DNA from: Clostridiales bacterium | GTDB taxonomy: Bacteria > Bacillota > Clostridia > Lachnospirales > WQUN01 | Direction: 5' to 3' | Length of the DNA stretch: 35,670 bases | NCBI GenBank assembly: GCA_031263155.1 | Contig: JAISGK010000066.1 | Coordinates: 1 to 35,670, forward strand | Shown: piece by piece, positions 27,083 through 35,521 of the stretch | Layout: every line of letters starts with the position of its first letter | Numbering within the stretch: position 1 is the first letter of the stretch | Notes under the pieces: model-generated | What the model was told of the DNA's origin: nothing | Databases searched by the model: none | The model's input: the letters and a program-made list of their open reading frames with translations, nothing else | Program-made: the position numbers and the translations under genes

Positions 27083-27730
27083 TTAGCCACATCGCCGAGG
27101 CAATTCTACCGTAGCGACGCAACCGCCCTCGTCGAGGTTTCGTATGGTAAATTTGCCTCCGTGCTGTGCGACGGTATTGCGGCAATAGCGCAAGCCCACG
27201 CCTGTTCCGTTCGCCTTGGTTGTAAAAATCGAACCGCCAAGTTTTGTCTCATCTAAACCCGTGCCGTTGTCTCTTATAAGCACACGAATGAAGTATGGCT
27301 CTACAATCACATCCGCCTGTATCCTGCCGCCATCGGGCACAGCCTCCACCGCGTTGTTAAGTAGATTGCTAAACACCAGTAACATTTTTTTGCGCATTCC
27401 TACAAAGCTGCATCTACCACTTCTGGGACCCTTAAACTTTATGCTCTCATAGTTGTTTTGATATTCTCTAAAAAGATCCCGCAACATTCCCGTCACATCA
27501 AATTCTTCTTCGCGCTCATCAGCGCGGCTTAAATGTATCAAGTCCAGCACCAGTTGATTTATCTTAAACAATTCCCTCTCAATAACAGCGCAATTCTTGC
27601 CGTACCTGCTCTCTGTGTCGCTGATCTTTATGATGTCCAAGTTTGCCAGAGCAAGTTGCAGTGGGTTTTTTATCTCATGCGCTATGGTGGCGGCTGTCTC
27701 CTCGAAAGTCTCGTAGCTTTGACCCCACAT
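27083..27730 (-). CDS. Soluble sensor-less histidine kinase
   Basis: The 215-residue protein is only a kinase core. The phospho-acceptor is His18 in IAHEIKNPLQLAL, a HisKA helix pair runs to about residue 75, and the ATPase domain has the N box NLLNNAVEA (122-130), G1 DNGTGLD (154-160), the F/G2 segment FTTKANGTGVGL (169-180) and a normal end. There is no PAS, GAF or transmembrane segment, and no response regulator in the window. The core resembles sporulation kinases (KinA/B type). It lies 54 bases downstream of the MPN-LysM membrane protein gene on the same strand and may receive its signal from that protein. AAAGGGG precedes ATG 27730. Confidence 0.88.
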   Translation of the reverse strand: MWGQSYETFEETAATIAHEIKNPLQLALANLDIIKISDTESRYGKNCAVIERELFKINQLVLDLIHLSRADEREEEFDVTGMLRDLFREYQNNYESIKFKGPRSGRCSFVGMRKKMLLVFSNLLNNAVEAVPDGGRIQADVIVEPYFIRVLIRDNGTGLDETKLGGSIFTTKANGTGVGLRYCRNTVAQHGGKFTIRNLDEGGCVATVELPRRCG

Positions 27731-27784
27731 GTAAATTTTCCCCTTTACTCATACCGGTTCTAGTAGATACACTTGTTCGTCATA

Positions 27785-28993
27785 TTATTCGGGTATTTTT
27801 ATAACTGTACCCGAAACGATCAGGTTTGGATCGGTAATGTTGTTGTACTGCATAATACTGTCTACCATGTCGGTCGTACCGAAAAATTTAACCGCTATGG
27901 AGTTAAGCGTGTCGCCGGCTTTTACCGTATATGATGATGGCCGTGGCGTGCTTGATGGTATAGGCGTCAATGTGACCGCGCCGTTTTCTTCAATTACTGT
28001 AGCCGGAATAGTGGGTGTGCCCGCACCGTCAGTTGCCGTCCCGTTTGGCGTCGGGCTGCTCAAGATTTGCTCGCTGCCCGCAAACACGGATTGCGCGCTG
28101 TTGCTTATATTTTGCGCGAGATTTTGATAGCTGGCCAGCAACACTGACGTTTGCCGCTCTAGAGTCGCTATTCTATCCTGATTTTGAATGAGTCCCGCGC
28201 CCATTATAAACGACACAATAAAGAGCACAGCCGACAGACCTACCAATAAATTAAGCATTCGTCTTTGATCGGGCTGCTCTTTGCGCGGTATGCCGCGCGA
28301 GCGCAGCACAGCCGGAGCGGGCAGATGCTCACGATCCCCCCTCTTGGCAGTGTGACTTTCGCGATCTCCTATCCGATCATACTCACCTAATTTTTCATCC
28401 TTATCAGACATAGAGCCATGTATAACAGCCGGCATATCGTTAAAATCCATCCTGTTTCGCACCATGTATTCGTGCATGGCCTCATTCTTGTCGTAGTATA
28501 TGAAATAGCCTTTGCTCTCTTCCAGGGTCATGCCGCTTTTTGTGTATGTATAAAACGCGTTTGTCTTTTCTATTGGATCCATTATAAACATTACTTGATA
28601 TTTCTTTTTAAAGTGACCTATATGTACGTCAATGTAACCGCTATTGAGGTAGACGCCATAGCTGGGCTGGCTTTGCATCCATCCGACGATTTTTTGACCA
28701 GGGAAGTATTGCTCCACGCACGTTTGCGCGTATTCCATGGAGCGCTCAGTAAAAATTGTAAGGCCGTTACGCACTTCGGTGTACTTTCCCTGTACAGCTC
28801 CGTTAATGAATAAAATAGGTTGGCTGTCGATGACCATATACCGCCCTATCAAAATGGCTATCCGTTCCTGATATCCGCCAGCTTCCGCATACGCGTGGAG
28901 ATACGAGCAAACATAATCCTCCATATAGATACGCAGACCCTCACCAATAGAACCGATTTGTTTAATATTGGCTGGTAGCTCGCTGTGCTCCAT
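27785..28993 (-). CDS. Membrane protein: degenerate MPN/JAB-like domain, one TM helix, LysM
   Basis: The 402-residue protein has four parts. Residues about 20-155 resemble an MPN (JAB/JAMM) fold: ERIAILIG at 43-50, then KIVGWMQSQPSYGVYLNSGYIDVH at 101-124 and VMFIMDP at 134-140. In active JAMM proteases this is VGW-HSHP with later Ser and Asp; here both histidines are glutamine (Gln107, Gln109), so metal-dependent peptidase activity is unlikely. A charged linker (195-245), a single hydrophobic helix (246-267), a short coiled-coil-like stretch (268-300), a Thr/Pro-rich spacer (310-352) and a LysM domain (354-400, SYTVKAGDTLNSIAVKFFG) follow. The predicted topology is N-terminus inside, LysM outside on peptidoglycan. 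GGAGG precedes the ATG. The MPN assignment is by motif reading only. Confidence 0.8.
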   Translation of the reverse strand: MEHSELPANIKQIGSIGEGLRIYMEDYVCSYLHAYAEAGGYQERIAILIGRYMVIDSQPILFINGAVQGKYTEVRNGLTIFTERSMEYAQTCVEQYFPGQKIVGWMQSQPSYGVYLNSGYIDVHIGHFKKKYQVMFIMDPIEKTNAFYTYTKSGMTLEESKGYFIYYDKNEAMHEYMVRNRMDFNDMPAVIHGSMSDKDEKLGEYDRIGDRESHTAKRGDREHLPAPAVLRSRGIPRKEQPDQRRMLNLLVGLSAVLFIVSFIMGAGLIQNQDRIATLERQTSVLLASYQNLAQNISNSAQSVFAGSEQILSSPTPNGTATDGAGTPTIPATVIEENGAVTLTPIPSSTPRPSSYTVKAGDTLNSIAVKFFGTTDMVDSIMQYNNITDPNLIVSGTVIKIPE

Positions 28994-29215
28994 TACAACT
29001 CCTCCTGATTACGATACTCCGCTTTATTTTGCATGCCCTTGGTACATGTCTATGCAAGACAAGCAAAATATATCACAATAAATATAAAATAAATAGGAAA
29101 TCATGTTGAATGGCAAAAAAATAATACCTCATTCGTCAACAATATAGTGCGGCATTCGTGTATAAACAGTATAAAACTACATTAAAACCACAACCAAATT
29201 ACTACAGAATTTTTT

Positions 29216-29247
29216 GTAGATTTGATTCTCTAAAATAGGATAAAATA
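29216..29247 (+). promoter_or_regulatory. Possible sporulation (sigma-F-like) promoter for yyaC
   Basis: GTAGA (29216-29220) and GGATAAAATA (29238-29247) resemble a sigma-F -35 and -10 with a 17-base spacer, and YyaC is a sporulation gene in Bacillus. Each element has mismatches, and no good sigma-A pair was found. Speculative. The remaining 28994-29215 is AT-rich with nothing else I can name. Confidence 0.25.
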
Positions 29248-29267
29248 TTAGCATAGAGTTCTAACAA

Positions 29268-29306
29268 TTAACAACAATCATTAACAACAATCACGAACAA
29301 CAATCA
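29268..29306 (+). repeat. Three tandem 13-bp units upstream of yyaC
   Basis: TTAACAACAATCA occurs at 29268-29280 and 29281-29293, followed by CGAACAACAATCA at 29294-29306. A partial unit precedes at 29261. The last unit merges into the following hairpin. Confidence 0.88.
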
Positions 29307-29346
29307 CCAAGCTATAGGCAAGTGACAAATCACCTGCTTGGGTGAT
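29303..29346 (+). promoter_or_regulatory. Nested hairpin just before the yyaC ribosome binding site
   Basis: ATCACCAAGC (29303-29312) pairs with GCTTGGGTGAT (29336-29346) with one bulged G. Inside it, GCAAGTGA and TCACCTGC can pair around CAAA with one mismatch. It ends eight bases before GGGAGG at 29355-29360. Confidence 0.6.
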
Positions 29347-29366
29347 ATACAACCGGGAGGAAACCT

Positions 29367-30011
29367 GTGAGCGAAACACATTACATCAACGCCGCCGATG
29401 CGCCTGCGGCGCAAAAAGTCGGTATCATTTTGGCAGACTGTTTTCAAAAATATTCGTTTGATCATATGGTTTTTTTGTGCATAGGCACAGACAGGGCAAC
29501 GGGCGATAGCTTAGGACCAATAGTCGGTTACAAACTTAAATGCACACTTGCTGAACAGTTGCTTAACGCGGAAAACGGCAAAGCGACACATACTAACACC
29601 GTATCGTTAACACAAGCCCATATCAGCACCGTGTCAGTGTTTGGCACATTAGAAAAACCCGTACACGCCAAAAATATAGAACAAACATTGGATTATATAA
29701 AAGCCGTGTTCGATGACCCATTCATCGCCGCTATAGACGCCAGCCTGGGCAGAACCGAAAACGTAGGGTATGTCACTATATCAGAGTCGGCGTTGGCCCC
29801 TGGCGCGGGATTATCCAAAGACTTACCCAGCGTGGGACGCGTTTCTATTACTGGCATAGTAAACGTGGCCGATGGCATGGATTTTTCCATTTTGCAAAAC
29901 ACTCGCCTACATCTTGTGATGAAGATGTCAGAGGTCATACACGATGGAATACTCGCCGGGCTAAAAAGATTTTTTGCCAACGCTGGCAATTCTGGCGAAT
30001 TTATAGTATAG
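29367..30011 (+). CDS. yyaC: Sporulation protein YyaC (Gpr-like fold)
   Basis: The 214-residue protein belongs to the YyaC family, related in fold to the spore germination protease Gpr and to hydrogenase-maturation proteases. The signature FLCIGTDRATGDSLGPIVGYKL lies near residues 36-57, FIAAIDASLGRTENVGYV near residue 118, and a PGAGLSKDLPSVG segment near residue 148. It is found in spore formers and its substrate is not known. GTG 29367 is preceded by GGGAGG six bases away. Upstream lie three 13-bp repeats and a hairpin; downstream is the permease gene, 30 bases away. Confidence 0.92.
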   Translation: MSETHYINAADAPAAQKVGIILADCFQKYSFDHMVFLCIGTDRATGDSLGPIVGYKLKCTLAEQLLNAENGKATHTNTVSLTQAHISTVSVFGTLEKPVHAKNIEQTLDYIKAVFDDPFIAAIDASLGRTENVGYVTISESALAPGAGLSKDLPSVGRVSITGIVNVADGMDFSILQNTRLHLVMKMSEVIHDGILAGLKRFFANAGNSGEFIV

Positions 30012-33245: not shown

Positions 33246-35450
33246 TCATTTCTCCGGGTCAAATACATATGCTATCACGCATTTTGGCCATTGCCATTCT
33301 TTGCCCACAAGCGTTTTGTAACCTACAAAATCCGCCCACAAAACAAGTTCCGCCCCTTGCTTGCCATTGCGCGCGGCGTATCCGTTCTCCACATTAACCC
33401 ACAAGTCCATCTCAACGACTGCGGTCTTGTAGCCATCCGCGTAAAAATTGCGCAAAACGATTTCATCATCTTTCACCCGCACATTTCCATGCCATTCTCC
33501 ATCGTTTAGGTAGACAGCCCTATCCATATCTCCGTATAGAGTGGACTTATGTTCTCCCATTATATCTTTTTTTAGAATAGGGTTTACATTGTCCGCCCTG
33601 ATTATTTTTATTTTATGAAAACGCGCTCCGCACTCACCGGCGCCGCGCCGCAAAACGAGCCGCGCCGTGCGTGACGACCACCACGAGCTCTCTGACACCT
33701 CTTTCAGGGTTACGCGCGCCGCGTGCACGCCACGTTCCGCTTCAACCCCGACTGCTTGCCTATGGTCAATCTTGTCTTCTTGACCATGGTCGGCCCTATT
33801 TGGTCGCCCATGGCTATTGCCAGAGACAAGGCGCGTATTCACATTTTCGGCGGTAAGCGCCGCATCCCAATGGGCGCGCCTTGCTACAAGCAGTGATTGA
33901 TGAGTCACGTGCCCGCCTGCCACTATGGGTGAATCGTCTTCGCCGCGAGTCAGCCGCTCATCTTCCCCATCGGACACCAAGAGGGCTATATCTTCGTGAG
34001 GGCGATCCTCATCGGCGTATATCATCAGGTTTTCCACCCATAGAGAGGTCGCCAACTGATCCGACGGATTATATTTATCGCTTAGCACGAGGATGATCTG
34101 GTCGTCGCGCGGTACGGTTTCAAGATTATCTGTTGCGTTTAGCTTATCATAAGAGTGGCGCTCATACCATCCGACGTATACGATAAAATCTTTGTCAAAC
34201 CTGATGCCACTTAGGGATGTCGCTCTTAACAGGCCGTTTTTGATATTGTTTTGAATCCATTTGGTATAGTCTGTGTCCAGCGCGCCGTAACCCGCTTCAC
34301 CGATTTTTTTCCACCCGGCTTTATTATCGTTACTGTCCAGACAAACCTGCAAAAATCCGTTACCGCTGTTTTGATCCATCTGAATTTTCCAATCATCATT
34401 TGTATCGCTTGGGTCGAGATCCGCCCAATTGTTTACAAAGTGGTACCCCTCGGGCAGGGTCAGGTAAATCTTTTCACCCGGGCGCAATGCCCCGGCAAAA
34501 ACCTCTTTTATCTGAATGGGCGCCAATTCCCAAAAATCATGAGCCTCCGCCACGTCGCCATCTAGCCTGGACTGAGTAAATTCTGTACGCACATTGGCCG
34601 CCAGCAGGGTTTGAGGGGAAATGCCTGCGGGAATTCCATCGCCGCCAAGTCCTATTTGTATTTTTACATCTTGCTCACCGCGCGCGCGAATGGCCAATGG
34701 AATGATTATTGCGCGGCTTTCTGTAGCGGCACAGTTTTCAAGTATTGTTACGACGGCTTCGCTTAGGTCATATTTGCATACGACCAGGCTGTACGCGACT
34801 TCGGCCTCGACTCCGGCTCTAAAATATATCCCATGCTTTGCTTTGGCGTCAGAGTGGGCGATGGCTTGCGGTTCTGTCACACCGGGTACAAAGAATCCCA
34901 TTTTCTGATCATACGTAGAGGCAAAACGCGTATCGTCTACAAAATCTCCGGGCATCTCCCCACCCCAAGAGGCTATCGGCGCTGGCGACAGGCTTGCCCA
35001 ATCGTTCAACGCGCCGCGCATTGGCATATAGCTTGCTGACGCGGGAGACTTTTCCATTATCCCAAGCAATTCCAACGACGCGCGTTTAATGTTAAGCCCG
35101 CGATTGGGTTCGCTTGAGCTGCTCGTGTTATGACGAAAGTACCACTGGGCGTTGTGCAGCTTTAGAGAAAACTGCTGACCCGTCAACACGTCGCCGGCAA
35201 GATGAATGATCAGCTCCGAACACTTTGTAAAATAGTCTGGCGCATAGTCATTATCATGGGCATTTTGTTCCGTGTAGCGCCGCGCCTCAGTTCCCTCGCT
35301 CGGTTGCTCCACAAGGGCGGTGTTGGCTGCTACAGTGGGAATATTGTTTACCTCGACTCTCGAAATAGCGTATGCGGGCAGCGCGGCACAGAAGAAAATC
35401 ATTTTCGCCGCCGACAATAACAATAAGAACAGCACAAGTTTATTTTTCAT
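33246..35450 (-). CDS. Large secreted protein of unknown function
   Basis: The 734-residue product starts with a clear signal peptide (MKNKLVLFLLLLSAAKMIFF, then cleavage probably after ALPAYA near residue 28). The mature part is polar and looks beta-rich, without transmembrane helices, sortase motif or repeats. The stretch IKEVFAGALRPGEKIYLTLPEGYHFVN in the middle third resembles a segment I associate with clostridial surface proteins that carry copper-amine-oxidase-like stalk domains, but that C-terminal domain is not visible here. ATG 35450 is chosen over 35495 because AAGGGAG lies seven bases upstream and the signal peptide starts there. It is monocistronic in the window, 28 bases from the convergent YigZ-family gene. 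I do not recognise a function. Confidence 0.8.
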   Translation of the reverse strand: MKNKLVLFLLLLSAAKMIFFCAALPAYAISRVEVNNIPTVAANTALVEQPSEGTEARRYTEQNAHDNDYAPDYFTKCSELIIHLAGDVLTGQQFSLKLHNAQWYFRHNTSSSSEPNRGLNIKRASLELLGIMEKSPASASYMPMRGALNDWASLSPAPIASWGGEMPGDFVDDTRFASTYDQKMGFFVPGVTEPQAIAHSDAKAKHGIYFRAGVEAEVAYSLVVCKYDLSEAVVTILENCAATESRAIIIPLAIRARGEQDVKIQIGLGGDGIPAGISPQTLLAANVRTEFTQSRLDGDVAEAHDFWELAPIQIKEVFAGALRPGEKIYLTLPEGYHFVNNWADLDPSDTNDDWKIQMDQNSGNGFLQVCLDSNDNKAGWKKIGEAGYGALDTDYTKWIQNNIKNGLLRATSLSGIRFDKDFIVYVGWYERHSYDKLNATDNLETVPRDDQIILVLSDKYNPSDQLATSLWVENLMIYADEDRPHEDIALLVSDGEDERLTRGEDDSPIVAGGHVTHQSLLVARRAHWDAALTAENVNTRLVSGNSHGRPNRADHGQEDKIDHRQAVGVEAERGVHAARVTLKEVSESSWWSSRTARLVLRRGAGECGARFHKIKIIRADNVNPILKKDIMGEHKSTLYGDMDRAVYLNDGEWHGNVRVKDDEIVLRNFYADGYKTAVVEMDLWVNVENGYAARNGKQGAELVLWADFVGYKTLVGKEWQWPKCVIAYVFDPEK

Positions 35451-35521
35451 AGCAATCTCCCTTGGATAACAAACAGGCAATAAAAAAATGCCCATATGGT
35501 ATTGTTTGCCACAAGGTAATG

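Follow-up and report, generated by a model that had tools for sequence, protein, structure and literature searches.

With a probability of roughly one half, we propose that two adjacent genes on the analysed stretch of DNA (35,670 nucleotides, hereafter the window) encode the two partners of a signalling module in sporulating Lachnospirales, in which a pseudo-JAMM platform feeds an orphan histidine kinase acting on Spo0A. The pair probably represents a control input to sporulation that has not been described before. Its components are of known kinds and their combination is new: in the open literature (most subscription papers and the 66-gene signature list being outside the scope) we found neither a combination of LysM, JAB/MPN and kinase nor a sporulation signature naming such a protein, and LysM is absent from PMC1779556. 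The pair and its surroundings comprise the following features.

27785..28993, minus strand: pseudo-MPN membrane protein of 402 aa with one transmembrane helix and LysM (ORF, Pfam, fold, orthologues in 183 of the 245 Lachnospirales genomes surveyed)
28454..28966, minus strand: cytoplasmic MPN (JAMM-fold) domain, residues 10-180 (AlphaFold2 model, PDB matches Rpn11/CSN5/BRCC36)
28664..28675, minus strand: degenerate JAMM motif QSQP, residues 107-110, where HxHP is expected (sequence, alignment of relatives)
28865..28867, minus strand: Glu43, the JAMM catalytic Glu position, kept in most relatives (alignment)
28187..28258, minus strand: single transmembrane helix, about residues 246-269, N-in/C-out (hydropathy 2.4, K/R bias; conserved in relatives)
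27944..28186, minus strand: extracellular helix, then a low-complexity linker rich in Pro/Thr/Ser, residues 270-350 (model, sequence)
27791..27931, minus strand: LysM domain, residues 355-401 (Pfam PF01476, E 3e-11)
27083..27730, minus strand: soluble histidine kinase core of 215 aa without input domain (HisKA and HATPase_c over cut-off; 29-sequence alignment)
27515..27700, minus strand: HisKA dimerisation/phosphoacceptor domain, phospho-His at residue 18 (27677-27679) (Pfam, alignment)
27095..27388, minus strand: HATPase_c domain with N, G1, F and G2 boxes (Pfam, alignment)
28994..29366, no strand assigned: divergent intergenic region common to the MPN-LysM gene and yyaC (Spo0A-box motif scan, suggestive)
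29367..30011, plus strand: yyaC (spore protease YyaC family), divergent neighbour (TIGR02841, 185 bits)

Both open reading frames had been named in a preliminary description of this DNA and lie at the coordinates stated there, with 54 bp between the MPN-LysM gene and the kinase gene. Their neighbours in the window encode MurA, YyaC, YtvI and HflX; there is no response regulator among these, and neither a UBL nor a dedicated E1 gene among the genes adjoining the pair. The yyaC neighbourhood and the JAMM-LysM origin presented below had been missed by that description. It should be added that another ORF of the window, of 749 aa (33246-35495, minus strand), gave zero Pfam or NCBIfam matches.

The N-terminal domain of the first protein is barely recognisable from sequence alone, with a weak Pfam match to JAB at residues 86-124 (E 0.035, under the curated cut-off) and a phmmer match of residues 34-163 to CSN5 (E 0.015-0.04), and its fold was assigned from the AlphaFold2 model and PDB searches. 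The model, built with 14 homologues, reached a pLDDT of mostly 78-92 over residues 10-170 and continued as a helix up to residue 300, with low confidence beyond. In the PDB the domain matched Rpn11 (Foldseek E 4e-9), CSN5/6, BRCC36 and archaeal Rpn11 (Z 16.3 and rmsd 2.5 over 138 residues to the Caldiarchaeum protein, 6fno), that is, the MPN alpha/beta fold that the preliminary description had proposed for comparison with structure predictions. Its assignment of one transmembrane helix and an extracellular LysM was likewise borne out: six K/R residues precede the helix and two follow it, in agreement with the positive-inside rule, and the LysM domain scored 43.5 bits against a cut-off of 20.9.

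The second protein passes the Pfam cut-offs for both of its domains and carries the intact motifs of a HisKA kinase (H18, N-box at 122, DNGTG at 154, GTGVGL at 175). Only 17 residues stand ahead of the phospho-histidine, which leaves no room for an input domain, and the protein has neither the sensory input nor the transmembrane region of a classical sensor kinase, as the preliminary description had stated. The H, N and G2 residues are invariant among 29 aligned relatives. A shortened ATP lid or an altered G1 box was seen in some lineages (L018, L024 and L052), and there the second protein may be a phosphatase or phosphotransferase.

In the window protein the sequence Q107-S-Q109-P takes the place of the JAMM HxHP, both His having been changed to Gln as noticed earlier, and Glu43 is the only residue kept of the full motif (E, HxHP, S, D). 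Across an alignment of 91 relatives, a complete JAMM site was confined to a separate group, found mostly in clostridial orders other than Lachnospirales, and to a pair of additional copies carried by a genome from the same family as the window (L061, L062); intact HTHP was seen only in the group tied to ubiquitin-like operons. In Lachnospirales orthologues Gln nearly always replaces the second His (Asn, Arg, Thr, Met or Gly in the rest) and His itself never occurs there, the first position is occupied by Gln, Tyr, His, Leu or other residues, and the Ser and Asp positions are altered in most relatives. Glu43 is retained as a rule. On these residues the domain is classified as a pseudo-JAMM and predicted to be catalytically dead. 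That it could still be an enzyme with an unusual site, using Glu and Gln as ligands to cut a ubiquitin-like or other substrate, is highly improbable: the retention of Glu43 and the HTQP motif with its single His in L053, L055 and L058 would fit an active site, but the order as a whole has lost the second His, variation is free at the first His and at Ser/Asp, and the window genome has no detectable Prok-RING_1 and E2. Two of the HTQP members (L053, L058), which have Ser/Thr and Asp as well and lie outside the kinase-linked subclade, plausibly mark a trail of decay of the JAMM site. Separately, a second MPN-TM-LysM lineage with GVR/GIR replacing HxH was observed in families f72 and f84 (L079-L081, L086, L087) and is probably an independent origin of the dead version. 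In one locus (L047, genome G013) the MPN-LysM gene is broken, with an in-frame TGA and two frames that overlap; this is a pseudogene or else an error of assembly.

The provenance of the protein is indicated by its intact relatives. All six sampled genomes with intact JAMM outside the order had a Prok-RING_1 protein beside the JAMM gene, and the operons checked encoded a RING-zinc-ribbon protein, E2 (UQ_con, also fused to FHA), a trypsin-like protease, a YukD-like UBL and E1 (ThiF). Among genomes with a changed motif or weak match, Prok-RING_1 was found in 1 of 11, elsewhere in the genome; among genomes without the protein, a weak match was found in 1 of 39. The window genome, 92% complete, had zero matches to Prok-RING_1 and UQ_con (E2) at the thresholds used. 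Furthermore, a branch with support 96/81 divides the Lachnospirales pseudo-MPN group from the intact-JAMM relatives in a tree whose root is not fixed. Since the intact relatives sit in ubiquitin-like operons and the window genome is devoid of RING and E2 matches, the window protein would be a descendant or paralogue kept without such a system; judged by these residues and neighbourhoods, it most likely came from a deubiquitinase-like enzyme, and we infer direct inheritance. As an observation in its own right, the operons with membrane JAMM-LysM proteins (L101, L102, L103, L104 with tandem JAMM, L105, L110 and L061/L062) often contain two JAMM copies flanking Prok-RING_1, together with E2-FHA fusions and a trypsin-like protease, and the presence of LysM suggests envelope substrates.

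The distribution of the pair was surveyed in 245 genomes of the order with completeness of at least 90%. The MPN-LysM gene was present in 183 of them and the short kinase clade in 70, all 70 of which also had MPN-LysM. In 53 of the 70 the kinase lay directly downstream on the same strand, and in one more (G032) a contig end separates the two genes; a few cases are blurred in this way (G032, G024, G009). The distance between the genes had a median of 5 nt, with several overlaps of 4 nt (38 loci, some being the same record twice). A pairing conserved with such tight spacing in dozens of genomes does not look accidental, and that the two are chance neighbours without functional relation is very hard to credit: the genes are separable and kinase-less families exist, but the spacing is kept across many families and the kinase wholly depends on the presence of MPN-LysM. 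The linked kinases fall in one subclade of the MPN tree (support 99/65), which also holds kinase-less members (L014, L027, L040, L041, L045, L046, L048, L056); the simplest reading of this topology would be one gain of the linkage and several losses.

These counts uphold the preliminary description in part. Its own condition for refutation, separate genes in most genomes, has a mixed outcome: the two genes adjoin in most genomes that have the kinase, yet most MPN-LysM genes are without an adjacent kinase, and 113 of the 183 genomes with MPN-LysM have no kinase of this clade. The MPN-LysM protein is thus older and wider in distribution than the pair, and its dead MPN domain, which had been cast as a component of the module, cannot be there for the kinase only; there must be an older partner or role, independent of the kinase in many lineages. 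A short kinase of similar type is encoded elsewhere in the genome in families f7, f14, f17 (one genus), f21 and f22, and in the loci read it adjoined a HIT-family gene. Seven such loci (L096-L099, L134-L136) have input-less kinases of approximately 240 aa beside the HIT-family gene, with MPN-LysM elsewhere in the same genomes; these kinases are possibly a relocated or ancestral form of the linked one.

The link of MPN-LysM to sporulation is strong. Both MPN-LysM and Spo0A were present in 168 of the 245 genomes and neither in 56, while 15 had MPN-LysM only and 6 Spo0A only (odds ratio 105, Fisher p 4e-34; kinship was handled only via comparisons within f22 and f5). Flagellin, used as a patchy control, had an odds ratio of 0.42 with Spo0A, weakly in the opposite direction. 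Within f22, nine genomes had MPN-LysM, the short kinase and Spo0A, and nine had none of the three. Ten of the 15 MPN-only cases were f5 genomes with decayed copies: where Spo0A is missing in this family, the MPN copies are badly decayed, with E 1e-8 to 1e-21 versus the usual 1e-36 to 1e-54. In genus g46 of f5 (G259, G552, G561, G587, G610, G615, G620, G627), poor-scoring copies persist without Spo0A, as if decaying after sporulation loss. Among the genomes of the kinase clade, 68 of 70 were in the Spo0A list as well, the exceptions being G469 and G600.

Six genomes of g270 (L118-L123) have a cluster of divergent yyaC, MPN-LysM, kinase and spo0A, in which spo0A follows the kinase directly in one genome (G501) and a small ORF in the other five. 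The regulator was identified as Spo0A by TIGR02875 over the cut-off; the linkage is probably one evolutionary event. The small ORF appears CYTH-like by eye. One other spo0A locus, from another family (L114), has an upstream gene that is spoIVB-like by eye. Together with the order-wide co-occurrence, the g270 cluster sustains the connection to Spo0A that the preliminary description had suggested. A genuine two-protein kinase receptor with another response regulator as target, its correlation with sporulation being indirect, is quite unlikely: the window has no response regulator beside the pair, and its genome has two Spo0A-family matches (one at C43 and one split in two at C38), leaving room for other targets, but the regulator behind the kinase in g270 is Spo0A and no other regulator recurs beside the pair in the loci read.

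The co-occurrence could also mean a role within the spore programme and not upstream of Spo0A. MPN-LysM might be a structural or morphogenetic sporulation protein, for instance a wall anchor in the membranes of septum or engulfment, co-regulated with yyaC, acting after commitment, with the kinase being a later addition in one clade that only monitors or fine-tunes it. Its association with Spo0A also holds in kinase-less families, the kinase-linked clade is nested within an older kinase-less range, and yyaC, a member of the B. subtilis sigma-F regulon as listed in PMC3416734, lies divergently beside it in most families of the order, including that of the window. Upstream sequences lean weakly in the other direction. 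Exact Spo0A boxes were found in 8 of 59 MPN-LysM upstream regions versus 8 of 225 controls (p 0.007, uncorrected), seven of these eight being in the same orientation at -77 to -135; the enrichment, seen in several families, is suggestive only, and the window upstream region has only one-mismatch matches. There was also weak sigma-A-like enrichment upstream of MPN-LysM, with no sigma-F- or sigma-G-like enrichment there, as against weak sigma-F-like enrichment upstream of yyaC, in promoter matching that is too weak to settle the timing of expression. Moreover, the clustering of the kinase with spo0A in g270 points to initiation. On this balance, we consider the post-commitment structural role rather unlikely, the strongest nonetheless of the readings weighed against the signalling module.

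For the signalling module acting on Spo0A, the following mechanism may be envisaged. LysM would anchor the protein in peptidoglycan, and the transmembrane helix with a conserved juxtamembrane helix would pass tension or ligand state inward. The dead JAMM domain, derived from the JAMM-LysM enzyme of ubiquitin-like operons, would now be a protein-binding platform for the orphan kinase and perhaps also for a second, older partner. The state of the wall or of the sporulation septum would in this way set the kinase activity, and the kinase would control Spo0A by phosphorylation or dephosphorylation. Contact between the two proteins, the LysM ligand, the direction of signalling and phosphotransfer to Spo0A are what we infer here. 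Built upon the clostridial orphan kinases (PMC11210211) and MPN-minus scaffolds, this model is the most economical. The fuller account is offered tentatively: a deubiquitinase-like enzyme of a bacterial ubiquitin-like pathway, deprived of its metal site, would have turned into the receptor at membrane and wall for a split histidine kinase, and this kinase would decide through Spo0A when Lachnospirales sporulate. If true, sporulation initiation in a major gut order would have an input of a new class. The pair provides a concrete candidate for Spo0A input in an order dominant in the gut and termite gut, and the MPN-LysM gene, as a marker tracking spo0A in the order, could help to predict spore formation from genomes.

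The pathways that activate Spo0A have yet to be characterised in dozens of clostridial families, and the orphan kinases that phosphorylate Spo0A in Clostridia include CAC0323, CAC0903, CPR0195, CPR1953/1954 and C. difficile PtpA-C (PMC11210211). Like these, the window kinase is an orphan HisKA-HATPase_c protein with no cognate regulator alongside in the window and with a link to sporulation; most of them, however, have their own sensor part (PAS, TM, Cache, HAMP) (PMC11210211), whereas the window kinase is a bare core accompanied by a separate membrane-wall protein. CapK+CapS, a kinase-repressor pair ahead of Bub, Bil and CBASS operons (PMC13373217), resembles the pair in placing a GHKL kinase near bacterial ubiquitin-like genes, but its HTH-STAS-GHKL build, cytoplasmic repressor substrate and immune operons are unlike the window kinase.

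Bacterial ubiquitin-like operons are known as E1/E2/JAB operons (PMC1779556) and as the Bil and Bub systems (PMC13373217). Several of the JAMM-TM-LysM proteins of clostridial ubiquitin-like operons have the same build as the window protein (N-terminal JAMM, TM, C-terminal LysM) and are its nearest intact relatives in sequence and tree; their JAMM residues are intact and their neighbours are RING, E2, E1 or UBL genes, while the window protein, its metal site lost, sits beside yyaC and the kinase. The eukaryotic MPN-minus subunits CSN6, Rpn8 and those of eIF3 are metal-less MPN scaffolds, and in a similar way a JAMM protein from a ubiquitin-like system of bacteria has apparently become a signalling platform here. 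The eukaryotic subunits are soluble parts of large complexes without LysM, TM or a kinase partner.
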